DNA from: Bordetella parapertussis
GTDB lineage: Bacteria; Pseudomonadota; Gammaproteobacteria; Burkholderiales; Burkholderiaceae_A
Direction of reading: 5' to 3'
Length of the DNA stretch: 64,000 bases
Assembly: GCA_945877235.1 (NCBI GenBank)
Contig: CAMCRF010000010.1
Span: forward strand, 4,184 to 68,183
Shown: positions 2,542 through 57,112 of the stretch, one piece after another
Layout of the letters: every line of letters begins with the position of its first letter
How positions within the stretch are numbered: the first letter of the stretch is position 1
Made by a program: the position numbers and the translations under genes
The notes under the pieces: model-generated
Seen by the model: only the letters and a program-made list of their open reading frames with translations
Told to the model about the DNA's origin: nothing
The model's database searches: none

Positions 2542-2561
2542 CATCGTCTGCCTGGACGATG
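2542..2561. promoter_or_regulatory. Perfect 7-6-7 operator palindrome between hsaB and hsaC
   Basis: CATCGTC (2542-2548), six-base spacer TGCCTG, GACGATG (2555-2561): the two arms are exact reverse complements. It lies in the divergent gap, 33 bases from the hsaB start and 55 bases before hsaC. A possible -10 element TATACAT follows at 2591-2597, with no clear -35, which suits activator-dependent transcription. Related copies occur in other promoter gaps of this window. The binding protein is not known; the LuxR regulator at 14720 is one candidate. Confidence 0.7.
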
Positions 2562-2616
2562 TCCTCCAAGCGGTCGCTCGAAAGAATCTCTATACATCAT
2601 CCAGAAGGATAAGCCC

Positions 2617-3504
2617 ATGTTCCAGGTCCAAGAGTTGGCCTATGTCGTTGCAGCGCACCCTGATCTCTCGGCCTGGCGCACCTACGGGGAACAGGTCCTC
2701 GGTATGCAGGCGCTCGACGAGACCGGCGCGCTGCTGCTCAAAATGGATGAGCGTGCCTATCGCATTCAGGTTGAGCAAGGTGACCAGGCCCGCTACGTGG
2801 CCTCCGGCTGGCTGGTGCGCAACGAAGACGCATTTGAGTCCGCCCGTGCGCACTTCAAAGCGCATCAGGTAAAGGTTGAGGAGGGCTCACCCGAACTCTG
2901 TCAGAGACGTAAGGTGACTCAGATGCTGATCGTTCATGACCCATCGGGCAATCGGCACGAGCTGGTGTGGGGTTATCAGTCAGACTTTTGCCGCATGGTC
3001 TCGCCTGTTGGGGTGCCGCATTTTGTAACCGGTGACCAAGGCATGGGCCATGTCGTCCTGCCAGCCCCTCAGTTCGCTGAGACCGTCTCTTTCGTGCGCG
3101 ATGTCCTGGGTTTCGGGCTCTCTGATCTGTTCAACTTTAAGCCAGCACCCGAGGCGCCCGCATTGCCCATTCATTTTTTCCATTGCAACAACCCACGTCA
3201 TCACAGCTTGGCGCTTGCTGCTTTTCCGGTCCCCTCTGGCTGTGTTCACATCATGGTTGAGGTGCCCGACATGGCAGAGGTGGGTCGAGCCTTCGACCGC
3301 AGGATTGCACACCAAGTTGCTCTGTCTGCCACCCTTGGCCAGCACACCAACGATCGCATGATCTCCTTCTACATGAAGACACCCTCTGGTTTTGACGTAG
3401 AGGTCGGTACGGGGGGCGCGCAGGTGGACTGGCATGCACATGTCACCCATGAGTTCACCAAGGTGTCGCTCTGGGGGCACGACTTTTCGGTGGGGCAGGG
3501 CTGA
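2617..3504 (+). CDS. hsaC: 3,4-DHSA 4,5-extradiol dioxygenase (ring A cleavage)
   Basis: A 295-residue two-domain type I extradiol dioxygenase, the family's usual length. Fe(II) ligands are His145 (GMGHVVL), His211 (CVHIMVE) and Glu262 (DVEVGTGG). Second-shell catalytic residues are His195/196 (PRHHS), His243 and Tyr252, a spacing that matches BphC closely. HsaC (TesB in Comamonas) opens the aromatised A ring of 3,4-dihydroxy-9,10-secoandrostatrienedione. Start ATG is preceded by AGAAGGA at 2602-2608. It is first in a long plus-strand operon and shares one base with ipdA, although its direct pathway partner hsaD is at 57148. Confidence 0.93.
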   Translation: MFQVQELAYVVAAHPDLSAWRTYGEQVLGMQALDETGALLLKMDERAYRIQVEQGDQARYVASGWLVRNEDAFESARAHFKAHQVKVEEGSPELCQRRKVTQMLIVHDPSGNRHELVWGYQSDFCRMVSPVGVPHFVTGDQGMGHVVLPAPQFAETVSFVRDVLGFGLSDLFNFKPAPEAPALPIHFFHCNNPRHHSLALAAFPVPSGCVHIMVEVPDMAEVGRAFDRRIAHQVALSATLGQHTNDRMISFYMKTPSGFDVEVGTGGAQVDWHAHVTHEFTKVSLWGHDFSVGQG

Positions 3505-4385
3505 TGCTAGATAAAACCCAGTCGCTCGAGGCCTGTGCTGCACGCGTCAAAGACGGCATGACCATTGGTGTTGGAGGTTGGGGGCCCCGCCGCAAGCCCA
3601 TGGCATTGGTGCGTGAACTGATCCGTCAAGGCAGAAAAGACCTCACGGTCGTAACCTACGGTGGACCCGACGCAGGCATGCTCTGCGCTGCAGGCGCCGT
3701 CAAGCGACTCATCTATGGATTCGTCTCGCTCGACGCCATTCCGCTCGAAGCCCATTGGAGAAAGTCCCGAGAGAGCGGCGGTTTTGAGGCCATCGAGATT
3801 GATGAGGGCATGTTGCATTGGGGGCTGCGAGCAGCGGCCATGCGTCTTCCGTTTCTGCCGACCCGCGTGGGCTTGGGAACAGATGTCCTCAAGCACTATC
3901 CCGGCATTCGGCTCATTCAGTCCCCCTATGACGATCAAGAGTGGCTGGTGGCAATGCCGGCGTTGCGGCTCGATGCCGCCCTGATTCACGCCTCTCGCGC
4001 AGATCATTTGGGCAACACACAGAGCTTGGGTAGCGACCCGTATTTCGATGACCAGTTTGCGAGGGCAGCCGATCACGTCTTGGTGCAGACTGAGTTTTTG
4101 GTCCCCCGACTCGATCTCGTTCATAGCGACAGTGCGCACTTCAACCTTTTCGAACGAAGCCTTGTGACTGCAGTCTGTGAGGTGCCGGGTGGTGCGCATC
4201 CCACCACAGCCCCCACGCAGTACGGCTGGGACATGGGACATCTCAAAGACTACTCTGGCTTTGCCGAACAAGACCAAGGGTTTGATGCCTATCGGCAGCA
4301 GTTCCTCTCGGGATCCGAGGCCGACTACATCGAGGCAGTTGGCGGTCTGGAGCGGGTTCGTGCGCTCGCGCAGCCCATCTTCTAG
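3504..4385 (+). CDS. ipdA: COCHEA-CoA hydrolase, alpha subunit (CoA-transferase family I fold)
   Basis: A 293-residue protein of the glutaconate-CoA-transferase alpha fold, with the glycine-rich GMTIGVGGWGPRRKP segment near residues 18-32. In steroid degraders the IpdAB pair (ScdL1L2 in Comamonas) does not transfer CoA but hydrolytically opens ring C of COCHEA-CoA. The assignment rests on fold, on the adjacent beta subunit 8 bases downstream and on echA20, ipdC, ipdF and fadA6 in the same operon. The start overlaps the hsaC stop (TGATG). Without that context it would be annotated as a generic CoA-transferase subunit A. Confidence 0.88.
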   Translation: MLDKTQSLEACAARVKDGMTIGVGGWGPRRKPMALVRELIRQGRKDLTVVTYGGPDAGMLCAAGAVKRLIYGFVSLDAIPLEAHWRKSRESGGFEAIEIDEGMLHWGLRAAAMRLPFLPTRVGLGTDVLKHYPGIRLIQSPYDDQEWLVAMPALRLDAALIHASRADHLGNTQSLGSDPYFDDQFARAADHVLVQTEFLVPRLDLVHSDSAHFNLFERSLVTAVCEVPGGAHPTTAPTQYGWDMGHLKDYSGFAEQDQGFDAYRQQFLSGSEADYIEAVGGLERVRALAQPIF

Positions 4386-4393
4386 AGGATTTC

Positions 4394-5182
4394 ATGACCA
4401 CCTGTACCCTTGCAGAATTGATGATTGTGGCCGCATCTGAGGCATGGAGAGGCAACGGGGAGTTGCTGGCTAACGGCATTGGGCCTGGGCCTCGATTGGC
4501 TGCCTCCCTGGCAAAGCTGACCCACAGCCCCGAGTTGCTGATGACCGACAGCGAGAGTCGATTGGTTGAGGAGCCTGTACCCCTCGGCCCTCGCACAGGC
4601 CCCTTAGAGGGGTATGTCCCACGGTATTCGGGGCGCGCTGATTTTTCTCGCATCTTCGACATGGTCTGGAGAGGCAAGCGCCACGCCATGATCGGACCCA
4701 CACAACTGGACGGATGGGGTCAGACCAACCTCTCCTGTATCGGGGACTATAAACGACCTAAGTCAGCCATACTGGGCGTGCGAGGGCTGCCGGGCAACAG
4801 CATTTCGCATCGCAACTCTTTTTTCATGCCTGCGCATTCCAAGCGCGCCTTTGTGTCTAGGGTAGACATGGTCTCGGGCGCTGGCCGAGATCCTGCCCAG
4901 TGGCCGGACGGGAAGGTGCCAGAGATTCTGTTTGGCCTTGTGATCTCAAACCTCGGCGTTTTTGATTTCAATGCCCCTGTGGGCCAGATGCGTGTCTGCA
5001 GTCTGCATCCTGGCGTTCGCATCGACACCGTGATCGAGCAGACGGGTTTTGAGCTGTCCTACGATTCCAGTCCGGCTGTCACTGCAATGCCCACCGAGGA
5101 TCAACTCCAGCATCTTCACCGGCTCGACCCACATGACTTTCGCTCCAAAATCTTAAAGGGGAACCCCATTGTCGAAGCTTGA
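4394..5182 (+). CDS. ipdB: COCHEA-CoA hydrolase, beta subunit
   Basis: A 262-residue partner of IpdA with the CoA-transferase beta fold. GNGELLANGIGPGPRLAA near residues 20-37 and GPTQLDGWGQTNLSC near 100-114 are the recognisable glycine-rich stretches. It follows ipdA at once, with TAGAGGA just before ATG as ribosome site, and its end overlaps the next gene by 14 bases. The IpdAB complex opens the last carbocycle in steroid C/D-ring degradation. Strand, spacing and neighbours all agree; only the exact substrate is inferred. Confidence 0.87.
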   Translation: MTTCTLAELMIVAASEAWRGNGELLANGIGPGPRLAASLAKLTHSPELLMTDSESRLVEEPVPLGPRTGPLEGYVPRYSGRADFSRIFDMVWRGKRHAMIGPTQLDGWGQTNLSCIGDYKRPKSAILGVRGLPGNSISHRNSFFMPAHSKRAFVSRVDMVSGAGRDPAQWPDGKVPEILFGLVISNLGVFDFNAPVGQMRVCSLHPGVRIDTVIEQTGFELSYDSSPAVTAMPTEDQLQHLHRLDPHDFRSKILKGNPIVEA

Positions 5183-6074
5183 TGGCCCGAAGGTGAGTCG
5201 GCCCGACGAGAGTCAGTACGAGACAGATGCGCCCATCAAGACGGAGTTTAAGGACGGGGTGCTTTGGATCACCATGGACCGCCCTGCATTTCACAATGCC
5301 CAGAATTCTCAAATGACCTACGCGCTCGACGCAGCCTTTCGACAGGCGGTCGACGATGACGCGGTGCGGGTGATTGTGTTGAAAGGTGAGGGCAAACACT
5401 TCTCTGCGGGTCATGACATAGGCACCCCGGGACGTGATGTCAACAAGCCTTTTCCGAGGGTCCATCTCTGGTGGGATCACACCAACAAGCCCGGCGGCGA
5501 GTACCTCTATGTGCGTGAGCAAGAGGTCTATCTCAATATGTGTCGCCGCTGGCGTGACCTGCCCAAGCCCACGATTGCCATGGTCCAGGGAGCGTGCATT
5601 GCGGGTGGGCTGATGCTCGCCTGGGTCTGTGACTTCATCGTCGCATCAGAGGACGCATTTTTTCAGGACCCCGTTGTTCGCATGGGCATTCCCGGCGTGG
5701 AGTACTTCGCACATGCTTTTGAACTGCCCCCGCGAGTGGCCAAAGAGTTCCTGATGTTGGGCGAACGCATGCCCGCCCAGCGGGCCTTTGAGCTTGGTAT
5801 GGTCAATCGCGTAGTTCCTCGTGATGCGCTACAAGAGACTGTTGCAGCGATGGCAGACAAGTTGGCTCAGCAGCCTCGTATGGGTCTTGCACTGACCAAG
5901 CAGGCGATCCATCACGTGGAGGAACTCCGCGGCAAGCGCACCGCTATGGACGCAAGCTTTGCTTGGCACCACTTCGCGCATGTTCACAACGAGCAGGTGA
6001 CTGGCAATCTGCTTGGGGGGTTCGACGCCCAGTCAATGGCCAAAGCGAATAAGCAACAAGAGGGGCAGTCTTGA
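5169..6074 (+). CDS. Enoyl-CoA hydratase/crotonase family protein (ScdY-like candidate)
   Basis: A 301-residue crotonase-fold protein, longer than the usual 250-260 because of a loop rich in Trp and Tyr at about residues 90-120. The oxyanion-hole segments are GEGKHFSAGHDIG (about 73-85) and GACIAGGLML (about 139-148); a Glu occurs in PGVEYF (about 177). Translation probably starts at TTG 5169, because AAAGGGGA lies at a good distance and no ATG fits, which gives a 14-base overlap with ipdB. Comamonas has a C-ring hydratase, ScdY, encoded near ipdAB homologues, and this is the best candidate here. It is not EchA20, which is the next crotonase in the operon. Confidence 0.75.
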   Translation: MSKLDGPKVSRPDESQYETDAPIKTEFKDGVLWITMDRPAFHNAQNSQMTYALDAAFRQAVDDDAVRVIVLKGEGKHFSAGHDIGTPGRDVNKPFPRVHLWWDHTNKPGGEYLYVREQEVYLNMCRRWRDLPKPTIAMVQGACIAGGLMLAWVCDFIVASEDAFFQDPVVRMGIPGVEYFAHAFELPPRVAKEFLMLGERMPAQRAFELGMVNRVVPRDALQETVAAMADKLAQQPRMGLALTKQAIHHVEELRGKRTAMDASFAWHHFAHVHNEQVTGNLLGGFDAQSMAKANKQQEGQS

Positions 6075-7150
6075 TCCAGACCGAACTGACACGCCGTTTG
6101 GGGTGCAGAGCCCCCATCGTCCAGACTGCGATGGGCTGGGTGGCCGATGCCGGCCTGGTCATTGCCTCCACGCGCGCGGGTGCATTTGGCTTTCTCGCAG
6201 GGGCGACCATCGAGCCCGAAGACCTCGAGCCCCAGATCTTGCAAGTCAAGGCTGCGGTCGGACCAAACTTTGGCCTGAATTTTCATATGTTCCAAGAGAA
6301 TGCTGAAGACTGCATTCGGCTGGCCATTGCTCACGGGCTTCGGGCGGTCAGCTATGGGCGCGGACCAGATGCCAAGACCATTGCGCGGCTCAAGGACGCT
6401 GGCGTGCTCTGCATCCCGACCGTCGGCGCGGTCGAGCATGCCATGAAGGCTGAAAAACTAGGGGCTGACCTCATCACGATTCAGGGCTCCGAGGGGGGCG
6501 GCCATACGGGTCGCGTGCCGTCGTCTATTCTCCTACCTCAGGTGCTCGACGCGGTAAAGGTTCCCGTGATTGCTGCAGGTGGCTACAGCACTGGCCGCGG
6601 GCTCGCAGCTGCACTGGCCGCGGGTGCTTGCGGCATTGCCATGGGCACACGGTTCATGATGTCTGCGGAGTCCCCCACGCCCAAGCGCACGATGGCGCGA
6701 TACCTTGAAGTGAAGGACCCTGGCCAAATTCGCGTGACCGAAGCGGTCGATGGCCTTCGGCACCGCATGATCGAAACGGACTTGGTGCGCCGTTTGGAGG
6801 CCAGCTCTGGTCTGCGCAGACTCTTGGTTGCACTCGGAAATGCATGGCGATGGAAGGCGCAGACTGGGATGTCTGCGCAACATCTCGCTAAGGTTCTGGT
6901 GAAATCGTTTCGGGAGGACCCGACTGCTCTGGCCACGACCATCATGGCAGCGAACCAGCCGATGTTGATTCAGAAATCCATGATCGAGGACCGACCAGAG
7001 GAGGGCTTGTTGCCCTCAGGCCAGGTGGCTGCAGCCATTCGAAGCCAGGACACCTGTGAAGCGATTGTCAATGCGCTGGTCCAAGAGGCCGAGGCCTGCC
7101 TGCGTGCATCGACCCACTATGTATCGGAGCCCGTCAGTCATGCAGCTTGA
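6071..7150 (+). CDS. ipdC: IpdC-like flavin-dependent oxidoreductase (nitronate monooxygenase family)
   Basis: A 359-residue TIM-barrel flavoprotein of the nitronate monooxygenase/2-nitropropane dioxygenase family. GSEGGGHTGR (about 141-150) and AAGGYSTGRGLAAALAAGA (about 174-192) form the usual phosphate-binding loops for FMN, followed by GTRFMMS. In Mycobacterium IpdC belongs to the HIP-CoA ring-degradation pathway and is encoded beside ipdA, ipdB and echA20, as here. The likely start is TTG 6071, overlapping the previous stop (TTGA). The family is broad, so the IpdC name relies on synteny. Confidence 0.82.
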   Translation: MIQTELTRRLGCRAPIVQTAMGWVADAGLVIASTRAGAFGFLAGATIEPEDLEPQILQVKAAVGPNFGLNFHMFQENAEDCIRLAIAHGLRAVSYGRGPDAKTIARLKDAGVLCIPTVGAVEHAMKAEKLGADLITIQGSEGGGHTGRVPSSILLPQVLDAVKVPVIAAGGYSTGRGLAAALAAGACGIAMGTRFMMSAESPTPKRTMARYLEVKDPGQIRVTEAVDGLRHRMIETDLVRRLEASSGLRRLLVALGNAWRWKAQTGMSAQHLAKVLVKSFREDPTALATTIMAANQPMLIQKSMIEDRPEEGLLPSGQVAAAIRSQDTCEAIVNALVQEAEACLRASTHYVSEPVSHAA

Positions 7151-7919
7151 ATCACTCTCGTCCGCTTTCTCTGTGCATGCGGAGCCTAACGGCGTGGTGG
7201 AACTCGTGATCTCCCAGCCGCCCGTCAATGCCCTCGACAGCGGCCAGTGGCTGGCCCTGGCACGCCAGATTGAACAGATTGGCGCACACGCACTCACCCG
7301 CGTCTTGATCATTCGCTCTGAGGGCAGAGGGTTCTGCGCTGGCGTCAACATCAAAGAGCTCGACCAACACCCCGATCGCATTGTGGAGGTGAATCGGGGC
7401 AATTACGAGACGTTTCGTGCCATTCACCGCAGTCCGGTGCCTGTCATCGTCGCCGTTCACGGATTTGTGCTGGGCGGTGGCATTGGCATGACGGGCGCTG
7501 CCGACATTGTCGTGGCCTCTGAGTGCGCAAGCTTTGCGCTGCCTGAAGTCGATCGGGGGGCAATGGGCGGCGGGGCGCATTTGCAGCGATTGCTGCCTGT
7601 GCAAAAGGTGCGCGCAATGTTTTTTACTGGTGAGGCCTTGAGTGCGCGCGATGCAATGCCCTTCGGATTCATTGAGACGCTCGTGCCCCACAAGGACCAG
7701 TTGCGCAATGCAGCCCTGCGCATTGCCAACGTCATTGCTCAAAAGAGCCCATCCATGATCCGTTTGGCCAAAGAGGCGCTCAACGGCATTGAGGACGGCG
7801 ATCTCGAAGCGAAGTACCGATGGGAGCAGGGTTTTACGTTGCAGGCCTACACCACCCAAGACTCCAGCGAAGCGCGTCGAGCCTTTGTGGAAAAGCGCGA
7901 AGCCGACTTTAAGGAATAG
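7140..7919 (+). CDS. echA20: EchA20-type ring-D opening crotonase
   Basis: From ATG 7140 the protein has 259 residues. It carries SEGRGFCAGVNIKE (about 60-73), GFVLGGGIGM (about 105-114) and LPEVDRGAMGGGAHLQRL (about 132-149), which I recognise as very close to mycobacterial EchA20. EchA20 is a crotonase-fold hydrolase that opens ring D of the HIP-derived CoA thioester before IpdAB acts. A longer in-frame extension to 7056 exists but lies inside ipdC; starting at 7140 gives the usual length and an 11-base overlap. Comamonas ScdN is the counterpart. Confidence 0.88.
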   Translation: MQLESLSSAFSVHAEPNGVVELVISQPPVNALDSGQWLALARQIEQIGAHALTRVLIIRSEGRGFCAGVNIKELDQHPDRIVEVNRGNYETFRAIHRSPVPVIVAVHGFVLGGGIGMTGAADIVVASECASFALPEVDRGAMGGGAHLQRLLPVQKVRAMFFTGEALSARDAMPFGFIETLVPHKDQLRNAALRIANVIAQKSPSMIRLAKEALNGIEDGDLEAKYRWEQGFTLQAYTTQDSSEARRAFVEKREADFKE

Positions 7920-7925
7920 AACCGC

Positions 7926-9101
7926 GTGAAGCTCACCTATACCCCCGAGCAGATTGAATTCCGCCAAGAGGTTCGTGCTTGGCTAGCAAAACACAAGCCC
8001 ACTGAACGATTTGCTCACCATGAGATTCGAGAGGGCTTTCAGCAACACCGAGCCTGGGAGCAGACACTTGCGGATGCTGGGCTCAGCATGGTGACCTGGC
8101 CCGAGGGCTGGGGCGGCAGGGGCCGCAACCTGTTCGATTGGCTCATCTTCGAAGAAGAGTATTACGCAGCAGACGCCCCATTTCGCGTCAACCAGAACGG
8201 CATGTTGCTCTTGGGCCCGACGCTCATGGAGTTTGGAACCGAGGAGCAAAAGCAGAAGATCTTGCCGCGAATGGCCCGGTGCGAGGATATGTGGGCGCAG
8301 GCCTGGTCTGAACCGGGCGCTGGGTCCGATATGGCAGCCATCCGGTCTCGGGCTGAGCTGCGCGGAGACCGCCTGATCATCAACGGACAGAAGACCTGGT
8401 CCACCCGGGCACTCTTTGCCAACTGGGCATTTGGTCTGTTTCGCACCGATCCTCAATCGGAGCGTCACCATGGGCTGAGCTACCTCATGGTGCCCCTCGA
8501 CGCCAAGGGCGTTACCGTCAGACCCATCAAGGCGCTCAATGGCAAAGCTGCGTTTGCGGAACTCTTCTTCGATGACGTGGAGGTTGGTCTTGACCATGTC
8601 ATTGGTGAGGTGAACAAAGGGTGGCATGTGGCCATGGCAACCGCAGGGTTCGAGCGCGCACTCCTATTGCGATCTCCCGCACGATTTCTGCGCACTGCCA
8701 GCCAGCTTATGGAACTGGTGCGGCGGAGGCCAGATCGCCTGAAGGCAGACCCATCGATCGTTTCCGACTTGGTGAGGGTCTGGAGTCATACGCAGGCCTA
8801 TCAGCTCAATGCGTACTGGTCGGTCAGTCGCTACCTCAACGCAGAGGCGATTGGCGCAGAGTCTTCGGCCAATAAGGTGTTCTGGTCTGAGATGGATATT
8901 CACTTGCACGAAGTTGCGATGCGCGTGCTCGGGCCCGAATTCGAGTGCCTCCCAGAGGCCGAGCACTGGACCTCTCGGCCATCGACAGAGGCCGAGTGGC
9001 TGGAGGGCTTTCTGTTCTCGCTCGCTGGTCCTATTTACGCAGGAACCAACCAGATCCAGCGCAACATCATTGCAGAGCGCATGCTCGGCATGCCCCGCTA
9101 A
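7926..9101 (+). CDS. Acyl-CoA dehydrogenase, catalytic subunit of a heteromeric pair
   Basis: A 391-residue acyl-CoA dehydrogenase beginning with GTG six bases after echA20. The FAD/substrate motif AQAWSEPGAGSDMA is at about 124-137. The medium-chain catalytic Glu position near the C-terminus reads IYAGTNQIQ, so the base is missing there, but Glu243 in GFERALL occupies the position used by isovaleryl- and long-chain enzymes and by steroid ChsE-type subunits. The next gene encodes a shorter homologue lacking this residue, so an alpha2beta2 enzyme is likely, as for ChsE and IpdE enzymes. The neighbours point to HIP-CoA derivatives (IpdE1 or FadE30 role). Confidence 0.85.
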   Translation: MKLTYTPEQIEFRQEVRAWLAKHKPTERFAHHEIREGFQQHRAWEQTLADAGLSMVTWPEGWGGRGRNLFDWLIFEEEYYAADAPFRVNQNGMLLLGPTLMEFGTEEQKQKILPRMARCEDMWAQAWSEPGAGSDMAAIRSRAELRGDRLIINGQKTWSTRALFANWAFGLFRTDPQSERHHGLSYLMVPLDAKGVTVRPIKALNGKAAFAELFFDDVEVGLDHVIGEVNKGWHVAMATAGFERALLLRSPARFLRTASQLMELVRRRPDRLKADPSIVSDLVRVWSHTQAYQLNAYWSVSRYLNAEAIGAESSANKVFWSEMDIHLHEVAMRVLGPEFECLPEAEHWTSRPSTEAEWLEGFLFSLAGPIYAGTNQIQRNIIAERMLGMPR

Positions 9102-9113
9102 AGGAAGCAAGCG

Positions 9114-13021: not shown

Positions 13022-13023
13022 CC

Positions 13024-13497
13024 ATGGCAGTTGAGATGGCAGTGTTTTCGAGCCCTGCCGATTTTGTGGCCCGAGAGGGCGCGCTCTTGGGCGTCACGGA
13101 CTGGGTCGACATCCCCCAATCTCAGATTCAGGCCTTCGCCGATGCAACGGGCGATCACCAATGGATTCACGTCGATGTGGAGCGGGCAACGCAGGGTCCC
13201 TTCGGAGCGACCCTTGCGCATGGCTATCTCGTGCTCTCGCTCGTGAATCGCTTCTTGCCCGAAATTGTCTCTGTAGAGAATATGGAAATGGGCCTTAATG
13301 TTGGATTGGATAAGGTGCGATTCCTCTCGCCTGTGAAGTCGGGGTCCCGACTGCGCGGCCGGGTTGAGTTAAAGCACGTCAAGCTGCTCGATGAGCGGTC
13401 TGTTCAAGTGACCATGACGGTCACGATCGAGCTTGAGGGCGCAGAGCGTCCGGCTTGTGTGGCCGAGCCCATTAGTCGCTATTTCTTTTCGGCCTGA
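13024..13497 (+). CDS. MaoC-like hydratase, single hot-dog domain
   Basis: A 157-residue hot-dog protein carrying a hydratase-2 motif: [12 protein letters not shown], in which the Asp and His of GDxxxIH are present while the usual Asn-Pro is Gln-Trp. [16 protein letters not shown] follows, as in MaoC-type (R)-enoyl-CoA hydratases. It begins two bases after ipdF. It may hydrate an enoyl-CoA made by the acyl-CoA dehydrogenase pair upstream. Which intermediate it takes is not visible in the sequence. Confidence 0.85.
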
Positions 13498-13514
13498 GGG
13501 CCAGGGGGTTTTAT

Positions 13515-14723
13515 ATGCATGAGGCTGTCATCGTCTCGACCGCGCGCACGGGCATTGGCCGCGCTTACAAAGGAGCTCTCAACGATACCGAGGCGCCTGT
13601 CATGGCCGCGCATGTGATCCGTCATGCAGTCGCCCGCGCACACCTGAAAGATGGCGAGGTTGACGATGTCATTCTGGGCGTTGCTGCCCAGCAGGGGACA
13701 CAGGGTTATACCGTGGGCAGGCTCTCGAATTACCTTTCTGGCCTGGGTGAGAAGACGCCGGGGATGTCACTTGATCGCATGTGTGCCTCTGGGTTGGTGG
13801 CAATCTCGAATGCCGCGAAGGACGTCATGGTGGGCGAGCGTGATGTGGTTGTGGCTGGGGGCTTTGAGTCGATCAGCCTGGTTCAGAACCAGCACAAGAA
13901 CAGCTACAAAGCCCAGTCTCAGGCAGTGCTCCAGGCCTACCCCACAGCCTATATCAGCATGATCGAAACAGCCGAGCTGGTGGCATCTCGTTATGGTGTT
14001 TCGCGCGCGGACCAGGACGCGTATGCGCTGATGAGTCAGCAGCGAACCGCTGAGGCCCAGGCAGCTAATCGCTTTGCGGAGGAGATTGTGCCCATGCCCT
14101 GCGAGCAGTTGCAGTTTGACTCGGAGGGCAAGCCCTCAGGCCACAAGACGGTAACGCTCGACCGTGATGAGGGCAATCGGGCGGACACTACGCTCGAGAA
14201 ACTTCAGTCCCTCAAACCGGTGCTCAAAGACGGCCAATGGTCGGGGCCCGGCCAGTGCATCACGGCTGGTAATGCCTCTCAGCTATCCGATGGCGCGAGC
14301 GCCTGCGTCGTGATGTCCAGAGAGAATGCTGCTGTGCGGGGACTCGCTCCCTTAGGGATTTATAGGGGATTGGCGCTGGCGGGTTGTCCGGCAGATGAAA
14401 TGGGGATAGGCCCGATCCATGCTATTCCCAAGCTTCTCCAGCGCCACGGCCTAAGCATTCAGGACATTGACCTCTGGGAGATTAACGAGGCGTTTGCCAG
14501 TCAGGTTCTGGCGGTGCAGCGAAACCTAGGAATTCCCCTAGACCGCATGAATGTAAATGGTGGTGCAATTGCCATAGGTCATCCCTTTGGAATGACCGGG
14601 TCCCGATTGGTTGGCCATGGGCTTTTGGAGGCGCGCCGCAGGGGTGCCAAATGGCTTGTGGTGAGCATGTGTGTCGGGGGTGGAATGGGCGCAGCGGCAC
14701 TGTTTGAAAGTCTTCCCGGTTGA
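13515..14723 (+). CDS. Acetyl-CoA acyltransferase (thiolase)
   Basis: A 402-residue thiolase with Cys90 (DRMCASGL), INEAFASQ, His356 (GHPFGMTG) and Cys386 ([11 protein letters not shown]), all catalytic residues intact. A purine-rich GAGGGCCAGGGGG stretch precedes the ATG. It differs from the FadA6-like thiolase in this operon and is nearer to general FadA/ScdF-type thiolases for beta-oxidation of the cleaved B ring. Its end overlaps the LuxR gene start. Confidence 0.85.
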
Positions 14724-15898
14724 GCAAAAACTGTATTGAACTCTCTCATTTCGCGGAGCTGGTGGATCGGATCTACCAGTCCGCCTATTCACCGCGCGAG
14801 TGGGTGGAGAGCCTCAATGCGATTCGTCAAGCCTTTCGATCGACCTACGCCACGCTGATTGTCCGCCCAGTCTCGGGGCACGATCCAGGGCTTATGGTCA
14901 ATGCAGGCCTTGCCGATGGGCAAGGCGGCGGCGTGGTGCCTGCCATTGAGTACTACAGTGCGCAGAGCCCCTTCATTGGCATGACCTCTCAGAGAATTTT
15001 TACCGTGCAGGACCTCATGTCGGAGGAGACGTGGGTTCGGTCAGATTACTACCAGACCTGGTGCGCGCCGCGGGGTGTTCACCACATCCTTGGCGTGAAT
15101 CTGCAGACCCTCGACACCGAGGGCTATCGGCTTCGGCTCACGCGGGCTCGGTCCGATGCAGCATTTTCCGACCTCGATCGCCAACTGCTCGCACTCTTGA
15201 TTCCTCACCTGCAGCGGGCCTTGCACCTGCAGACCCGGCTGGATACCTCTGAGCAGGTGGCCCATGTCTATGGCAGTGCGATTGGCAGCCTGAGTGTTGG
15301 TACCGTAACCCTGGACATCACGGGGCGGGTGCTTCAAATGAACTCGATTGCGCGTGCCCAGATCGATGCAGGCGATGCACTGAAAATCAGCAACGAGCGG
15401 CTTCATGCGCTGAACAACCAGGACAACCGCGAATTGCAGCGCATGGTTCAGGAAGCAGCCTCTCATGCCAATGGTGTCGAAGGGCCTGTGGGGGCGGTTT
15501 CTGTGACTCGCAACTCCAGTCCTCAGGGGCTAGGCGTCATTGTTCAGCGCCTCGGCCCCACGGTGTCATGGCTCAATGGCCGCCATCAGCCCGCCATCGT
15601 CTTGTTCCTTCGCGATCCCGAAATCAAAACCCAGCCGCCCTCCAAGGTAATTCAGCAACTCTTTCATTTCACGCCTGCAGAGACCACGCTTGCCATTGAG
15701 CTGGCCAATGGGCTCTCGCTGGACGAGGCAGCGGAGTTACTGAATATTCGTCGTAACACCGCGCGAGCTCACCTCCGGTCGATCTTCTCAAAGACGGGTG
15801 TACGCAGACAGACCGAATTGGTTCGGTTGATTCTTAACAGTGTGGTGTCACTGGGGCACCAAGGCGATCGCGAGCCTGAGCTCAGTTCGCTCTACTAG
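14720..15898 (+). CDS. LuxR-family transcriptional regulator, TesR-like
   Basis: A 392-residue protein with an N-terminal sensory region of about 300 residues and a C-terminal LuxR helix-turn-helix at about 310-375 ([17 protein letters not shown], then [19 protein letters not shown]). Comamonas TesR, the activator of steroid degradation, has this architecture. The likely start is TTG 14720, overlapping the thiolase stop (TTGA). It is the only complete DNA-binding regulator visible in the window apart from the MarR-like tail of hsaB, so it is the natural candidate to bind the recurrent CATCGTC-N6-GACGATG sites. That link is inference. The gene abuts a convergent permease without a terminator. 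Confidence 0.85.
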
Positions 15899-17212: not shown

Positions 17213-17245
17213 GGCGTCCCCTGTTACGTTGTTGCAGGTTGAGCG

Positions 17246-17281
17246 CATCGTCCCTGATGCTCATCGTCCATTTAGACGACG
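17246..17281. promoter_or_regulatory. Operator palindrome plus extra half-site, MFS/kshB divergent promoter
   Basis: CATCGTC (17262-17268), spacer CATTTA, GACGACG (17275-17281): 13 of 14 arm positions fit the perfect site at 2542. A second exact CATCGTC half-site lies 16 bases upstream at 17246-17252. The block sits between the divergent MFS start (17212) and kshB start (17320) and can serve both directions. Confidence 0.65.
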
Positions 17282-17319
17282 AGAATCTCTCAGTCCAGAC
17301 CAATCATGAGCGCCTGATC

Positions 17320-18357: not shown

Positions 18358-19894
18358 TTTGCCCAGCAGCAGTGTTCAGGCGCTGACTACCGCAGCGGCG
18401 CGTTGGCCAGACCGTGCTGCAGTGGTCGATCAGGGTCTTACCCTGAGCTTTCACGACTTGTCTGAGCGGGTCGCAGGTTTGCGGACTGCACTCACGCAAG
18501 CAGGGCTTCGACCCGGTATGGTCGTCGCGCTATGTGGTCCGAACAGCTGGCAGTGGATTGTCCAGGCATTGGCCGTTCAGTCGCTTGGCTGTGTCTTGCT
18601 GCCTTTGAGCACAAGATTGCGGCAGGCAGAACTGCAGGACATGCTCCAGCGCAGCCGTGCGTCCGCGGTCATTACTGTCAGTCGGTTCCTCGATTTCGAT
18701 TACCACGCTCTCTTTACTCACCTGCAGGCCGCGCTTGATTTTCGGCTCTGGGCCTGGGATTGGCCAGGGGGGGAGCAGATCCTGATGGCCACTCCCGAGC
18801 GTTGGCCTTCTGGCTTCTCTGAGCATGCACTCGAGCACGCAATTGCGGATCTCATGTTCACATCCGGCACAACGGGTAGGCCCAAGGGCGTGCTCTCGAG
18901 TCAGTCGCAGAACGCACGAGCGTTTGGTGCCTGGACCCAGGTGGTTGGGCTCTGTGAACAGGACCGCTACCTGGTTGTGAACCCCTTTTTTCATGCCTTC
19001 GGGTACAAGGCGGGCTGGCTGTCTGCCCTGATTCGGGGCGCCTGCATCTACCCCATGGCAGTGTTTGATGCACGCGCTGCATTGGCCACGATTGAGCGAG
19101 AGCGCATCAGCTTTCTGCCTGGACCTCCAACGCTCTTCCACGCGCTGCTGGATCACCCCGATCGAGCGCAATTCGATCTTCGGAGCTTGCGGGTCGCAGT
19201 GACGGGCGCCGCGACCATTCCGCCCAGCCTAATTAGACGCATGCGTGAGGAATTGCACTTTCAAACCGTGACCACCGCCTACGGACTGACGGAGTGCAGC
19301 GGTGTGGCAACGGTTTGTGACCCGCAGGCATCGGACGAGAAGATATCGACCACCAGCGGGCGTGCACTTCCTGGAGTAGAGGTGGAGTGCCACCGACCGG
19401 ACGGATCAACCTGTGCTCCCGATGAAGTCGGTGAGATTGTCATTCGCGGTTTTAATGTGATGCAAGGTTACTTTGAAGATGCCGCGGCCACGCGTGAAGC
19501 TATTGACGCTGAGGGCTGGCTGCACACGGGCGATGTTGGATCCATCGATGCACAGGGGTACCTCAAGATCACCGACCGCCTCAAAGACATGTACATCAGC
19601 GGTGGATTCAACTGCTACCCCGCCGAGATCGAGCGACTCATGCACAGCCATCCGTTGGTCTCCCAGGTTGCAGTGATCGGTGCGCCCGATCCTCGACTTG
19701 GTGAACTCGGGGTGGCGTTTGTTGTGAGGAAACCAGATGCAGTGCTCACAGCGTCCGAATTTCAGGACTGGTGCAAAACGGTGATGTCGAACTACAAGGT
19801 ACCCCGCAGGGTGGTGTTCGTCGAGCAGCTTCCGCTCAATGCGGCAGGGAAGGTTCAGAAGGCTGAGCTTCGGGCCCAGCTTGCGGACGCGTAG
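18350..19894 (+). CDS. fadD3: FadD3-like HIP-CoA ligase (AMP-forming)
   Basis: A 514-residue acyl-CoA synthetase from ATG 18350; an in-frame TTG three codons upstream has no ribosome site. Adenylation motifs in order: MFTSGTTGRPKGV (about 169-181), AYGLTECSG (about 306-314), GWLHTGDVG (about 386-394), DRLKDMYISGGFNCYP (about 406-421) and the catalytic Lys in NAAGKVQKAE near the C-terminus. FadD3 (ScdA in Comamonas) activates the propionate side chain of the HIP indanedione left after HsaD. Coupling to kshB and its similarity to the FadD3 group support this; other CoA ligases in the window resemble side-chain enzymes more. Confidence 0.82.
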   Translation: MPNLPSSSVQALTTAAARWPDRAAVVDQGLTLSFHDLSERVAGLRTALTQAGLRPGMVVALCGPNSWQWIVQALAVQSLGCVLLPLSTRLRQAELQDMLQRSRASAVITVSRFLDFDYHALFTHLQAALDFRLWAWDWPGGEQILMATPERWPSGFSEHALEHAIADLMFTSGTTGRPKGVLSSQSQNARAFGAWTQVVGLCEQDRYLVVNPFFHAFGYKAGWLSALIRGACIYPMAVFDARAALATIERERISFLPGPPTLFHALLDHPDRAQFDLRSLRVAVTGAATIPPSLIRRMREELHFQTVTTAYGLTECSGVATVCDPQASDEKISTTSGRALPGVEVECHRPDGSTCAPDEVGEIVIRGFNVMQGYFEDAAATREAIDAEGWLHTGDVGSIDAQGYLKITDRLKDMYISGGFNCYPAEIERLMHSHPLVSQVAVIGAPDPRLGELGVAFVVRKPDAVLTASEFQDWCKTVMSNYKVPRRVVFVEQLPLNAAGKVQKAELRAQLADA

Positions 19895-19909
19895 TCCCTA
19901 AGGACGATG
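19890..19909. promoter_or_regulatory. Operator-like palindrome upstream of SDR/NTF2/OYE operon
   Basis: CGTAGTC (19890-19896), spacer CCTAAG, GACGATG (19903-19909): the right arm is perfect and the left agrees at five of seven positions. It overlaps the fadD3 stop codon and stands 62 bases before the next start, in the only gap of this stretch, with the same 7-6-7 geometry as 2542. Confidence 0.5.
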
Positions 19910-24096: not shown

Positions 24097-24116
24097 CATC
24101 GTCCGTCCGGACGACG
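24097..24116. promoter_or_regulatory. Operator palindrome, hydratase/CoA-ligase divergent promoter
   Basis: CATCGTC (24097-24103), spacer CGTCCG, GACGACG (24110-24116): 13 of 14 arm bases fit the perfect site at 2542, and the right arm equals that of 17275-17281. It lies 33 bases before each of the two divergent starts chosen here (24063 and 24150). An alternative hydratase start at 24099 would fall inside it. Confidence 0.65.
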
Positions 24117-34578: not shown

Positions 34579-34616
34579 CATCGTCCGGTCAGACTGCCTG
34601 ACAGCGCCTGTGTCAG
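34579..34616. promoter_or_regulatory. Operator half-site and overlapping inverted repeats in MFS/hsaA gap
   Basis: CATCGTC at 34579-34585 is an exact left arm; at the matching distance the right arm is degenerate (GACTGCC, 34592-34598). Overlapping it are GTCAG-N5-CTGAC (34588-34602) and CTGACA-N7-TGTCAG (34598-34616), both perfect. The 176-base gap from 34544 to 34719 holds no gene; TTGACT at 34664 may be a -35 box but has no well-spaced -10. Confidence 0.5.
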
Positions 34617-34719
34617 CCGAGCGTTCTCTCTGGCACCTGCGGAGCTAGTCTGTTTGCGTGATGTTGACTTCACTCGGAATTCATAACCTGCGGTCATTCC
34701 TACCCAAAGGAGCTTGACA

Positions 34720-41473: not shown

Positions 41474-41493
41474 TATCGTCCTTTTGGGGTAAG
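41474..41493. promoter_or_regulatory. Weak operator-like site in ALDH/SDR divergent gap
   Basis: TATCGTC (41474-41480) matches the left arm of the recurrent palindrome at six of seven positions; at the proper distance the right arm, GGGTAAG, matches three of seven. It lies in the 126-base gap between the divergent starts at 41401 and 41528. Taken alone it would not be convincing. Confidence 0.3.
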
Positions 41494-47216: not shown

Positions 47217-47318
47217 GGTAAACGACATCCGGGACTAACGCATTCGGACGATGAATCTCCTAGGCGACGGATCAGTATGTGGAAAGCGCAGCATGCGCCC
47301 GACAACTAGGAGGAGACG
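47217..47318. promoter_or_regulatory. Promoter gap of the TonB receptor with one operator half-site
   Basis: This 102-base gap holds a single exact half-site GACGATG (47247-47253) but no matching left arm at six-base spacing (ACTAACG there). AGGAGGAG before ATG 47319 is a strong ribosome site. No terminator is visible after the upstream operon, so read-through into the receptor gene is possible. Confidence 0.35.
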
Positions 47319-49657: not shown

Positions 49658-51355
49658 ATGCGCACGATGGCTCTTTTGCTCTCATTCATTTTTTGGCTTT
49701 CATCGACCGCGCACGGGTACTCCTTCCCTGAGCGAAACCCCTACCTGCTCGATTCCGAGAACAACCAAGGCCATTGGAACGACGCGGCCACGGACAGTAC
49801 GCGGTGGCCTCTCAAGCTCGGTCATTTTCAGGTCAAAAATGTTTCTGATTTGGAGTTCAAGCCTAACGAGGCTCTCGGCATTCCCTTCTATTCCCGGCGC
49901 TACCCATCGGGGGAAGATGTTTCTTGGTTCTTCACCGGCTATCGCTTGCAGCGCATCCTTGACGATCAAGGGCGGCAGACCGTTGTAGATGACATTGCAC
50001 TCGTCCAGCCACCAACTGGCTATCAGGCGGTTCGTCCAGCAGAGCGAATCGAGCAGGGACGGGTGATTGAGTCACTCTTAGAGCAGGGGGACGAGGAGGG
50101 CCTCTCGCGCTATCTCTTGAGTACGTCGAATCGGCTCTCGAGTGCCGTTGAAGACCAAGTCCGTGGCGGCATCCTGTACTCCATGGTGGATGTGCAGGGT
50201 GGGTTTATCGGCACGAGTGCCAGAGGTATCATCCGCGTCCCTTTGCGGACACCAGATGAGCCACGCTCACAATTTGGTGTGCCGATTCGCATGCAGTTTC
50301 CTTCGTCTTTCTTCGATGATGAACGGGTCGCTCGTGCGACCATATTTCCGAAAGATGTGGTGTTTGGGTTGGGCATGACCTTCAATGGTTACATTGTGGT
50401 GAGCACGCTGGGCGGGCGTGTCATTACGCTCGATCGACAGACGCTCGAGGTTCGCTCCGAAATGCAACTCCCGCAGGCTGGTGAGGTCATCACCAATAGC
50501 TTCGCGACGAGCCAGGAGGCGGGTGGTGGGGCCGTTTATGTGGCGTCCAACATGGCGATGTATCGACTCGTCATCCTGCCAAATGGGGAGATATCTGATC
50601 AGGCCAAGGACGGTGCTTGGCGAGAGGCCTACGACCGAGGGGTTCGACTCAAGCGCGGCAAGATTTCAGATGGAACTGGTGCCACACCCACTCTAATGGG
50701 ATTTGGTCCCGACGAGGATCAACTTGTGGTGATCACCGATGGTGCTGCACAGATGCGATTGCTCGCATTTTGGCGGAATGATCCACCGAGGAGCGTTGAT
50801 GGACAACCCCGTCCTCGACTCGCAGGTCAGATTCCGGTGAGCTTTGGATTCACCTCCGATGTCATCCAATCTGAGCAGTCGGTCGCGGTCTACGGGCCAT
50901 ACGCATTCGTGATCAACAACATCATGCCGGAGGATGTAAGGCCTCTGCCAACCGGCGGTTCATACCTTCGGGGCTTGCTCGTAGGCGCCACTCGGCAGGG
51001 GCCACGAGGGGGTGCGATGTATCGATGGAACAGCACGCTCAGCCAGTGGACTTTGCTGTGGACTAAGCCCGAGATCATGCCGGTTGCCACGGTCCCAATG
51101 ATCAGCGGACCTTCGCGTGTTGTTGTTGTCAACGCATTTTTATCGAATCGCCCCAAAGAGAGTTTTCATTTGGGCTTTGATCTGGATTCTGGCAAAACGG
51201 TCCTGAGCGTAGCTGCCTCTCTTAATCCGGCATTTAACGGGGCCTTCTCTGGTATCAAGTGTGACGATCAGGGGTCGCTCTGGTACTCCACGATGCTGGG
51301 CCTTATCCGACTTGACGTCTCCAAGATGGCACCGACAGCATCGCCCACACCCTAA
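49658..51355 (+). CDS. Exported protein of unknown function, probable beta-propeller
   Basis: A 565-residue protein I do not recognise. Residues 1-20 form a signal peptide (MALLLSFIFWLSSTAHG), so it should be periplasmic, outer-membrane-linked or secreted. From about residue 150 it has repeated beta-strand blocks with turns such as GGFIGTSARGIIRV, NGYIVVSTLGGRVITLD, GGAVYVASNMAMYRL and QGSLWYSTMLGLIRLD, which resemble propeller blades of the SMP-30/strictosidine-synthase or quinoprotein kind. One Cys is seen in the mature part (IKCDDQ). GGGAGG precedes ATG. It sits between the TonB receptor terminator and an aldolase operon. A steroid-binding, hydrolytic or dehydrogenase role cannot be chosen from sequence. 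Confidence 0.8.
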   Translation: MRTMALLLSFIFWLSSTAHGYSFPERNPYLLDSENNQGHWNDAATDSTRWPLKLGHFQVKNVSDLEFKPNEALGIPFYSRRYPSGEDVSWFFTGYRLQRILDDQGRQTVVDDIALVQPPTGYQAVRPAERIEQGRVIESLLEQGDEEGLSRYLLSTSNRLSSAVEDQVRGGILYSMVDVQGGFIGTSARGIIRVPLRTPDEPRSQFGVPIRMQFPSSFFDDERVARATIFPKDVVFGLGMTFNGYIVVSTLGGRVITLDRQTLEVRSEMQLPQAGEVITNSFATSQEAGGGAVYVASNMAMYRLVILPNGEISDQAKDGAWREAYDRGVRLKRGKISDGTGATPTLMGFGPDEDQLVVITDGAAQMRLLAFWRNDPPRSVDGQPRPRLAGQIPVSFGFTSDVIQSEQSVAVYGPYAFVINNIMPEDVRPLPTGGSYLRGLLVGATRQGPRGGAMYRWNSTLSQWTLLWTKPEIMPVATVPMISGPSRVVVVNAFLSNRPKESFHLGFDLDSGKTVLSVAASLNPAFNGAFSGIKCDDQGSLWYSTMLGLIRLDVSKMAPTASPTP

Positions 51356-51359
51356 CGCG

Positions 51360-51379
51360 TCTCGTCTGTTTAAAGGATG
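51360..51379. promoter_or_regulatory. Degenerate operator-like palindrome before the aldolase operon
   Basis: TCTCGTC (51360-51366), spacer TGTTTA, AAGGATG (51373-51379): each arm fits the perfect site at 2542 at five of seven positions, with the same six-base spacer. It is placed 44 bases before the start at 51424, in a 68-base gap. Confidence 0.4.
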
Positions 51380-52635: not shown

Positions 52636-52636
52636 C

Positions 52637-54711: not shown

Positions 54712-56324
54712 GTACGGGGTACAGCCTTGTTGATTACCTTGACGCAGTGGTCAGGGCACATCCGAATCGCATCGCAGTTGTCTTTGGTGATTGCGTCCTT
54801 ACGTTTGAGGGGCTTTCTGCCCTGTCGTGGAAGGCTGCTGCATGCCTTGCGCAGGCTGGCATTGGAAAAGATCAGACCGTGGGTCTCCATCTCTACAATC
54901 GGCCCGAATATATTGCAGCATTCTATGGCGCATGCCGGCTTGGGGCTATTCCCTTTAACGTGAACTACCGGTACGGAAGACAGGAGCTCGCTTACCTCTA
55001 TGCAGATGCAGAGGTCTCGGCGCTGTTCTGTGAGGATGAGCTTCATGAGATTGCGCAATCTGCGCTCTCGGATGTCAGTCGAGTAGCAAAGGTATGTTCC
55101 ATTCTCGATCTGCATGCCGCGGACGGAGAGGCTTTTAGGTCTGGCTGCCAAGGGCAAGCCGCCGCCATCTCCGGACATGACTTGTCCTTGCTCTACACCG
55201 GGGGAACCACAGGCATGCCCAAAGGGGTCATGTGGAGACACAGAGACCTCTACCACGGCGCACTCGGATCCGGTGCATTATTCCTTCGCTGCGACCCCAT
55301 CGAGACGCCACAGGCGCTAGAGTCCATGGTGGCGCACATGCCCGAGCTCCGGTATCTCGCCATCGCTCCACTGATGCATGGCGCCGCCTTCTGGTCTGCG
55401 CTGATTGGTCTGCATTCAGGGGTTGGATTGGTTTTGCTGCAAGATCGACATTTCAATGCCGAGAGCGTGTTGAATGTGATCGAAAAGGACCGAGTCAACA
55501 TCCTCGCCGTGGTTGGAGATGCCATGGCAATCCCGCTTGTGGAGGCAATCGAGCGCGAGCCTGATCGCTGGAACTTGTCGTCCCTCTTTCACTTCGGAAA
55601 TGGTGGCGCCGTGCTCTCTGCAGGGACCAAGTCGCGCATCCGAGCGCTTCTTCCGAAGATCCAGATCGGAGATGGGATGGGCTCCTCCGAGTCAGGCATC
55701 CTGGGTACTGGTGACGCACCTCCAGACGCCACTGGTCTTCTCAGAATTCCAGCTCGCGCGGACGTGACCGTTGTGGTCGATCGAGAGCGTTTGGCGCATC
55801 CCGGAGAGCAGGGCATGCTTGCGAGGACCGGGGCCATTCCGCTGGGTTACTGGCGTGACGAGGAAAAAACGCGACAGAACTTTGTCACGGTCAGCGGCGT
55901 TCGCTATGTCCTGACTGGTGATGCTGCGTTGCTCGACGATGATGGTTCTGTGGTGCTCCTGGGGCGCGACTCGCAGTGTGTGAACACGGGTGGCGAGAAG
56001 GTCTTTGTAGAGGAAGTGGAGACGCAGATTAAGACGCATCCCTTGGTGTTGGACTGTAATGCTGTGGGCATTCCCGATCCCAAGTGGGGTCAAAAATTGG
56101 TTGCTTTGGTTAGCCTTCGATCCGCAATGGACTCAGGGCTAACAGCCCAGACGCTAGAGGCGTCCATCATTCAGACCTGCCGAGAGAGCCTTGCTGCATA
56201 CAAGGCGCCCAAGCAGGTCTGGGTGGTTCCTGAAATACCCCGTGGCGCAAACGGCAAGGCGGATTATCAGTGGGCCAAGCGCACTGCAAATGCCATGTCG
56301 TCCCGAACCCAAGATGGACCCTAA
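54708..56324 (+). CDS. FadD19-like acyl-CoA synthetase
   Basis: A 538-residue AMP-forming ligase. LLYTGGTTGMPKGVMWRH at about 159-176 is nearly the same as in mycobacterial FadD19/FadD17, which activate steroid side chains, including the GVMWRHRD extension. FNVNYRYG at about 82-89, GMGSSESG, VLTGDAAL and RDSQCVNTGGEKVFVEEVE complete the set. ATGA overlap with the racemase gene suggests that the racemase acts on the thioester it makes. It is the third side-chain ligase candidate in the island, which implies different side-chain lengths are handled. Confidence 0.86.
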   Translation: MSTGYSLVDYLDAVVRAHPNRIAVVFGDCVLTFEGLSALSWKAAACLAQAGIGKDQTVGLHLYNRPEYIAAFYGACRLGAIPFNVNYRYGRQELAYLYADAEVSALFCEDELHEIAQSALSDVSRVAKVCSILDLHAADGEAFRSGCQGQAAAISGHDLSLLYTGGTTGMPKGVMWRHRDLYHGALGSGALFLRCDPIETPQALESMVAHMPELRYLAIAPLMHGAAFWSALIGLHSGVGLVLLQDRHFNAESVLNVIEKDRVNILAVVGDAMAIPLVEAIEREPDRWNLSSLFHFGNGGAVLSAGTKSRIRALLPKIQIGDGMGSSESGILGTGDAPPDATGLLRIPARADVTVVVDRERLAHPGEQGMLARTGAIPLGYWRDEEKTRQNFVTVSGVRYVLTGDAALLDDDGSVVLLGRDSQCVNTGGEKVFVEEVETQIKTHPLVLDCNAVGIPDPKWGQKLVALVSLRSAMDSGLTAQTLEASIIQTCRESLAAYKAPKQVWVVPEIPRGANGKADYQWAKRTANAMSSRTQDGP

Positions 56325-57102
56325 CCGCAAGGTTGCACTGGTTACAGGGGGCACGCGAGGAATCGGACTTGAGGCCGCAAGGCATCTCGCCCGATGTGGC
56401 TACCGCGTGGTCATTACAGGTCGCTCAGCATCAGGCGCAATGACCTCTGCTCTAAGCCTGCTTGAGGCTGAGGGCGGAAGTCCGATTGGTCTCGAACTCA
56501 ACCTAGAGGTGCTCCAAACTGCAGAGTCCCTCATTGCGAGAGTGCTCGGCGCGGCGGGCCGCCTCGACCTCGTCATTCAGAATGCTGTCTATCAGGGTGC
56601 TCTCAACCAGCAGCGATTATTCGATCTTCCCTTGGGTCAATTGGACCTCGCTTGGAGAGCGTCCATTACGGCTCCTGTGGCCATTGTTCGTGATGCGTTC
56701 ATGCACATGCACGGGCAGTCGACAGGCGGCCGAATCCTGGTCGTCGGATCCGGTGCGGGACGGTACGACCCTCCATCCGCAGCCGATCAGGGCGGGTGGG
56801 GGTATGTCTACGGAGCGTCCAAGGCGGCGTTGCACCGTCTCGCCGGTGTCATGCTCGCAGAGAGGCCTCAAGGTGGTGTGGTGATCATGACAGTGAACCC
56901 CGGGGTCGTGGATACGCCAGCACTCAGAGCAACCCTTGGACTCGATGCAGATCTCGTAAAAAAGTTGGGCGCCCAATCGGCGGGCGCTGTAGGTGAAATC
57001 TTTGCATGGCTTGCCGTGCAGGCCCCTTCAGAGCAATGGAATGGTAGGTTTGTCGACCTGCAACGACTCGCTTGGAAGGGGCCCGATCAGGGGCTAGTCT
57101 AA
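56314..57102 (+). CDS. SDR family oxidoreductase with variant NNAG motif
   Basis: A 262-residue SDR from ATG 56314, overlapping the ligase by 11 bases. TGGTRGIG is at 11-18, the NNAG motif is QNAV (IQNAVYQGA), the Ser is in VGSGAG and YGASK carries Tyr/Lys. Between Ser and Tyr there are several extra residues (YDPPSAADQGGWGY), and the substrate loop differs from its many paralogues here. A dehydrogenase for a side-chain hydroxyacyl-CoA or a ring hydroxyl is possible. The open frame extends to 56191 within the ligase and is not taken as start. Confidence 0.82.
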   Translation: MDPNRKVALVTGGTRGIGLEAARHLARCGYRVVITGRSASGAMTSALSLLEAEGGSPIGLELNLEVLQTAESLIARVLGAAGRLDLVIQNAVYQGALNQQRLFDLPLGQLDLAWRASITAPVAIVRDAFMHMHGQSTGGRILVVGSGAGRYDPPSAADQGGWGYVYGASKAALHRLAGVMLAERPQGGVVIMTVNPGVVDTPALRATLGLDADLVKKLGAQSAGAVGEIFAWLAVQAPSEQWNGRFVDLQRLAWKGPDQGLV

Positions 57103-57112
57103 TAAGACGATG
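57093..57112. promoter_or_regulatory. Operator-like palindrome upstream of hsaD operon
   Basis: GCTAGTC (57093-57099), spacer TAATAA, GACGATG (57106-57112): right arm perfect, left arm four of seven, sharing TAGTC with the site at 19890. It overlaps the stop of the upstream SDR and stands 35 bases before hsaD. Confidence 0.45.

Follow-up and report, generated by a model that had tools for sequence, protein, structure and literature searches.

A 64,000-nucleotide stretch of contig CAMCRF010000010.1, from an assembly labelled Bordetella parapertussis and here called the window, carries by its gene content an island of the steroid (9,10-seco) degradation pathway. We found that a 20-base palindrome, CATCGTCC-N4-GGACGATG, recurs in most promoter gaps of this island. 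It is very probably the operator of TesR, the regulator encoded at 14720..15898 on the forward strand, which is LuxR-type by sequence comparison and would act as a one-component class II activator. A first-pass annotation of the window had proposed the LuxR protein at 14720 as the single regulator of the island operons. This proposal is supported by conservation of the palindrome, its concentration in the island, its co-occurrence with the TesR gene and its positions at Comamonas target genes. A TesR dimer would bind the palindrome via its C-terminal GerE-type helix-turn-helix (HTH). The centre of the palindrome would lie near -42.5, from where the bound protein would recruit RNA polymerase in class II manner at promoters with a -10-like box. 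Between divergent genes, one palindrome would serve promoters on both sides. The inducer may be a steroid or an early catabolite. The first-pass annotation had not noted that the -10 spacing is fixed, that some promoters are two-sided, that the tesA2 gap has a second site and that the operator is common to a wide TesR family instead of being specific to this island.

All eight 20-mers quoted in the first-pass annotation were located at their positions, with the scores claimed. We compared matches to the 14 arm bases inside the ten promoter gaps, 969 bases in total, with those elsewhere in the window. The gaps held one match of 14/14 and two of 13/14 versus none elsewhere, one versus one at 12/14, two versus six at 11/14, three versus 41 at 10/14 and two versus 184 at 9/14. 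Matches of at least 11/14 occurred in five of the ten gaps; over 2000 dinucleotide shuffles, the number of such gaps averaged 0.08 and never exceeded 2. The stronger of the eight sites hence stand out, but those with 9/14 and 10/14 are indistinguishable from chance by this rigid score alone, because 184 and 41 such matches lie outside the gaps. Conservation extends one base further inward than the proposed 7-base arms and leaves an N4 core. The refined consensus is approximately CATCGTCC-RWWY-GGACGATG, in which TAGTC often replaces TCGTC. Proximal and distal half-sites were of about equal quality (13 versus 12 of the compared sites). The supposed half-site at 47247 belongs to a degenerate full-length site at 47234..47253 (12.7 bits), of which it forms the right arm.

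We trained a weight matrix on gap regions of 78 loci with LuxR genes 43–48% identical, using the first-pass motif as a seed and excluding the window and the loci L001 and L002; the training set comprised 210 sites in 71 loci. The nine best matches in the window were at 17262, 2542, 24097, 19890, 57093, 24140, 41474, 51360 and 47234, and eight of these are promoter sites. The match at 24140 (15.9 bits) runs across the start codon at 24150; it was not counted as a site. The next matches (11.6 and 11.2 bits) fall within genes. Two sites in the tesA2 gap (10.4 and 9.5 bits) score below these and thus rest on conservation and spacing instead of score. The 57 gene models define 56 gaps, ten of which are promoter-sized, i.e., divergent or at least 30 bases long; nine of the ten contain a site, as had been claimed for most promoter gaps, whereas matrix values in the other 46 gaps reach 6.4 bits at best. 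Gene starts for this count were partly set by hand from homologue alignment, and 24162 was used where it should be 24150. The only promoter-sized gap without a site (2.2 bits) is 49592/49658. For the gene behind it, 49658-51355, Pfam gave nothing at 1e-5, and a counterpart is missing from both the Polynucleobacter and the lake genome island described below. When gapped palindromes were enumerated blindly in 80 fetched loci plus the window, the motif ranked only fourth to sixth, behind three forms of two other repeats. Other gapped palindromes, GCGAG-N4 and CTGCG-N8, showed still stronger enrichment in gap regions, in 8 to 13 of the 80 loci, and are perhaps dispersed repeats. A search of plasmid and viral sequence collections found nothing.

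The first-pass annotation had named lack of conservation in orthologous islands as grounds for abandoning the idea; we found the sites kept in two such islands while their flanks diverged. Polynucleobacter sp. 30F-ANTBAC has a collinear island in which 53 of the 57 window proteins are matched, mostly with 40–80% identity; 39235 is matched at a paralogue only, and the order of 61945 and 63036 is swapped. A 48.7-kb contig of a lake metagenome-assembled genome (MAG) spans 1538 to the start of 51394 and lacks one gene (49658). Nine of nine rightward promoters compared in Polynucleobacter retain a site of at least 15.0 bits. Mean identity over 20 bases was 15.4 for nine Polynucleobacter sites versus 5.4–6.3 for the flanks, in a comparison anchored at sites chosen by the matrix, which favours site over flank. 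In the MAG, the corresponding values were 19.1 for eight sites, six of them at 20/20, versus 10.6–13.0. The LuxR locus L001 is 95% identical, and its host, a 2.2-Mb lake MAG, is labelled Bordetella parapertussis. Collinearity with the Polynucleobacter island suggests that this label is wrong.

Genome-wide tests were run on relatives of the window genome. We scanned 1,923,408 bases of Polynucleobacter 30F-ANTBAC (two contigs, one of them without its last 11 kb) and obtained 11 matches of at least 16 bits. Eight lie in the strict 70-kb stretch with homology to the window, which covers about 433.4-503.9 kb on contig C4 (binomial 5e-10); two are just outside it and one is elsewhere. With the island redrawn as 429-508 kb (79 kb) to take in the two flanking matches, the count becomes 10 of 11 (binomial 1e-13). 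Column-permuted matrices averaged 0.9 island matches, with 5 at most. The palindrome is therefore concentrated in the island; a frequency no higher there than elsewhere was the other outcome named beforehand as speaking against the idea. The two flanking sites (L200 1679-1698 and L202 2890-2909) precede tonB-exbB and etfB-etfA. Their positions fit uptake via a TonB receptor, whose own gene has a site, and acyl-CoA dehydrogenation. Another match, at 514765 (15.8 bits), faces an acyl-CoA dehydrogenase gene, with the -10-like box one base closer.

Across genomes, the operator accompanies the TesR gene. Among 121 genomes of the genus Polynucleobacter, one contains full-length TesR, and eight others match over the HTH only. 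Exact ATCGTCYNNNNRGACGAW sites occur three times in the sole TesR-bearing genome and once each in two of the 120 others. In eight chosen genomes with TesR relatives the pattern was present in all eight, and a reversed control gave none. Among 149 Pseudomonas genomes, TMGTCYRNNNRGACGATG, a pattern picked after inspection of Pseudomonas loci, is found in each of the 21 that have TesR (89 strand-matches; in G157 the two strand-matches are one site), Fisher 1e-12 versus the 128 without. Several Pseudomonas genomes have two or three TesR genes. Of the Pseudomonas TesR matches ranked below G267 (38–41% identity), 8/9 have one stop inside the match.

In Comamonas testosteroni strain TA441, induction of tesB-tesR, tesA1-tesG and tesA2-ORF18 requires TesR, according to the accessible part of PMC6895838. 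For strain JL40, the matrix was retrained without 23 listed sources, all Comamonas loci among them. Sites were found preceding tesB (17.3 bits), tesA1 (weak, 14.5 bits) and tesA2 (19.8 bits). On the 259-kb JL40 contig, 22 of 24 matches of at least 13 bits lie within 78–209 kb, where the steroid genes are located, a few of them inside genes. The window genes from 2617 to 14720 are collinear (14 of 14) both in JL40 and in Polynucleobacter, and the 14720 gene closes the tesB operon, the place that TesR has in Comamonas.

We analyzed the position of promoter elements relative to the palindrome. A+T content peaks at +22 to +26 downstream of non-redundant sites. We scored A at +22 and T at +26, in the hexamer +21 to +26 beyond the palindrome, as a -10 signature. 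For 50 sites from five sources, it was present on 54 of 66 gene-facing sides versus four of 34 others (window 9/14, Polynucleobacter 14/15, MAG 8/13, Comamonas 12/12 and Collimonas 11/12 of the gene-facing sides). Sides were labelled by hand from homologue maps and the labels kept as first made; two of the four fitting sides labelled as lacking a gene do have one (P2 75589 and CO 21617, both leftward). In the Comamonas and Collimonas contigs the count covers matches with a mapped window homologue alongside, and it omits four site-sides, two that fit (CT 138201, CO 70319) and two that do not (CT 190757, CO 408). Of 121 further non-redundant distant sites, 85 had the signature on some side, whereas 30 other offsets averaged 5.9 such sites and gave 17 at most. 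If the hexamer corresponds to -12 to -7, the palindrome would occupy -52 to -33 and have its centre at -42.5, the class II position. At 2542, 17262 and 24097 the signature is found on both sides, facing divergent genes. The start codons at 2509, 24150, 34543 and 57148 lie 0 to 3 bases past the point 33 bases from the palindrome end. Should transcription start at this point, leaderless or nearly leaderless mRNAs are predicted.

Domains were scanned in all 57 gene models (51 with Pfam, six with NCBIfam only; thresholds 0.01 to 1e-30), and a DNA-binding domain was recognised only in the 14720 protein. Most of its homologues among the matches listed contain PF00196, and the HTH columns are nearly invariant in 58 homologues of 44–57% identity. 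Pfam at E ≤ 0.01 gave HTH families only, with neither an autoinducer-binding nor a kinase domain in the protein. Its highest 19-residue hydropathy mean is 1.21, and no strong transmembrane stretch was seen. The AlphaFold2 model (mean pLDDT 82, pTM 0.59) shows two α/β sensor-like parts and the C-terminal HTH. Its best Foldseek matches were bacteriophytochrome sensory modules; as their TM values are just 0.26–0.35, a weak GAF/PAS likeness of the sensor part is only a lead.

Several results weigh against TesR as the direct activator at these sites. The GerE match of the 14720 protein (residues 318-370) reaches 22.8 bits, just below the Pfam cut-off of 23.5. At a threshold of 14 bits or more, the Polynucleobacter island holds 11 matches and the rest of the genome 12, and TMGTCYRNNNRGACGATG occurs also in 27 of the 128 Pseudomonas genomes without TesR (31 strand-matches), about the chance rate. 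In the window alone the exact -10 criterion holds on only nine of 14 gene-facing sides, and canonical TANNNT boxes have no enriched position downstream of the sites. Moreover, TeiR is reported as a polar, membrane-bound or membrane-associated kinase in the accessible part of PMC6678751, i.e., with a different mechanism; the same source describes TesR as a DNA-binding activator as well as a membrane kinase. This report would suit a regulator encoded outside the window that reads the palindrome, with TesR acting indirectly, e.g., as the membrane kinase. We consider such an arrangement improbable, since the site tracks the TesR gene in two genera and often adjoins it (e.g., G128 C31, gene end 623337, site 623444), and since neither a kinase domain (Pfam) nor a strong transmembrane stretch was seen in the window protein.

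Repression by bound TesR appears still less probable. Repressor sites, too, are usually palindromes close to a promoter, and a different Comamonas LuxR protein has been described as a repressor in the literature portions available; however, the palindrome would be placed upstream of the -10 box, from -52 to -33, which is an activator position, and TesR is reported as necessary for induction (PMC6895838 and PMC6678751, accessible parts). An inverted repeat of this size could also fold as an RNA hairpin or terminator, but the -10-like box follows it at a constant distance on the gene-bearing side. The palindrome would thus be mostly untranscribed, and we give this explanation hardly any weight. 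The same holds for chance matches or coding constraint, which the many 9/14 and 10/14 matches in the window might suggest; for the site set this is refuted by shuffles, matrix ranking, conservation in two genomes and genome-wide concentration. Activation by TesR from the palindrome hence stays our preferred explanation. We further lean towards a broader proposal, for which our confidence is moderate. TesR would be a soluble one-component activator and not a membrane kinase, and the palindrome its operator across steroid-degrading beta- and gammaproteobacteria. One copy would drive a pair of class II promoters facing opposite ways, and the whole pathway regulon would be marked by the operator, in Polynucleobacter including TonB-ExbB for uptake energy and ETF as electron acceptor.

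Individual sites are described with their predicted -10-like hexamers; sites facing both ways are given without a strand. The operator at 2542..2561 (21.1 bits; 20/20 in the MAG and Polynucleobacter) is two-sided and serves the rightward tesB operon (2617 on) and the leftward flavin reductase gene (1538-2509), with predicted boxes AAGAAT at 2582..2587 (+) and AACCAT at 2516..2521 (-). TesR is the last gene of this tesB operon. The two-sided operator at 17262..17281 (22.9 bits; 20/20 MAG, 18/20 Polynucleobacter) lies between the rightward genes from 17320 and the leftward MFS gene 15899, with boxes AATCAT (17302-17307) and CAACCT (17236-17241). The third two-sided operator, 24097..24116 (20.8 bits; 20/20 MAG, 17/20 Polynucleobacter), faces the acyl-CoA ligase operon from 24150 rightward and the enoyl-CoA hydratase gene 23290 leftward, with boxes GAGCAT (24137-24142) and GAATCT (24071-24076). 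The operator at 19890..19909 (+) precedes the 19972 operon (18.3 bits), and its positions +21 to +26 read GACAAC, without the final T. Before the tesD-like hydrolase gene (57148 on), the operator at 57093..57112 (+) scores 18.0 bits (16/20 Polynucleobacter) and has the box CAGACT at 57133-57138. These last two sites overlap terminal bases of the preceding gene.

The operator at 41474..41493 (14.6 bits; 20/20 MAG, 15/20 Polynucleobacter) lies between the leftward aldehyde dehydrogenase gene 39986 and the rightward side-chain operon at about 41552. Neither side has the exact -10 signature; TAGAGT is found one base further out at 41515-41520. The degenerate operator at 47234..47253 (+) precedes the TonB-dependent receptor gene 47319 and is identical in the MAG (20/20). 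Its window hexamer CAGTAT is one base closer (47273-47278), and its Polynucleobacter counterpart scores 18.7 bits with GACACT. At 51360..51379 (+), before the 51394 operon (13.7 bits; 19/20 MAG, 11/20 Polynucleobacter), positions +21 to +26 read TTTACT, without the A. The gap 34543/34714 contains two sites, each with its own -10-like box. That facing tesA2 (34714 on), 34644..34663 (+), is weak by matrix (10.4 bits; box TAACCT at 34684-34689); it is 16/20 in Polynucleobacter and 20/20 in the MAG, where the adjoining flanks are only 6/20 and 10/20 identical. The weak operator at 34579..34598 (-), 9.5 bits, faces the leftward operon 33254/31098, with the box GACCCT at 34553-34558 (CACCCT in the MAG). 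No counterpart of it was found in Polynucleobacter, and single weak sites such as this one are uncertain.

As to the other island genes, the proteins at 2617, 34714, 35907 and 57148 have the HsaC, HsaA, 3-ketosteroid dehydrogenase and HsaD models as their best or nearly best matches, none of which reaches the strict NCBIfam cut-off. The 1538 protein matches flavin reductase families including HsaB, below cut-off, and the 61945 protein matches KshA_C above cut-off. No Pfam match at the thresholds used was obtained for 4394, 44439, 49658 and 18-809.

Regulation of bile-acid degradation in Proteobacteria was largely unknown according to the accessible part of a 2021 review (PMC8399759). We found no TesR operator in a literature coverage including the accessible parts of PMC6895838, PMC8700777, PMC13101464, PMC12502768, PMC8399759, PMC6678751 and PMC12239570. 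Most subscription papers and the 2004 TeiR paper lie outside this coverage, and an earlier description of the operator therefore cannot be excluded. If our proposal is correct, the palindrome shows where to seek the mechanism of the long-open question of steroid gene regulation, and it could pick out unrecognised steroid genes in any such genome. A defined operator would permit a simple binding and reporter test between the descriptions of TesR as DNA-binding activator and as membrane kinase. It would also allow the steroid regulon to be listed in unstudied genomes and could be used as a promoter part for steroid biosensors.

A close parallel is the lux box of Vibrio fischeri, likewise a 20-base palindrome centred at -42.5, where LuxR binds as a GerE-type HTH dimer in class II activation. 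The lux box has another sequence, however, and the window protein lacks the autoinducer-binding domain of LuxR; its sensor part is weakly GAF/PAS-like at most. KstR and KstR2 of actinobacteria also control steroid degradation pathway-wide, but they are TetR-type repressors, and no TetR-type regulator was matched among the 57 window gene models at the thresholds used. Their homologues are absent from bile-acid-degrading Proteobacteria according to the review (PMC8399759, accessible part). The EdcR operator of Caenibius tardaugens is palindromic and located in a steroid gene cluster as well; in contrast, as far as its description is accessible, it reads TnnCnnTACnAnTnGTAnnGnnA, overlaps the -10 box and is a repressor site. 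TesR/TeiR of Comamonas testosteroni differs in its description as a membrane kinase (PMC6678751, accessible part). It is 44.5% identical to the 14720 protein, is encoded last after the same tesB-scd genes and targets steroid-degradation genes, and the operator found in the window is also present in JL40 at the orthologues of the units it is reported to target.

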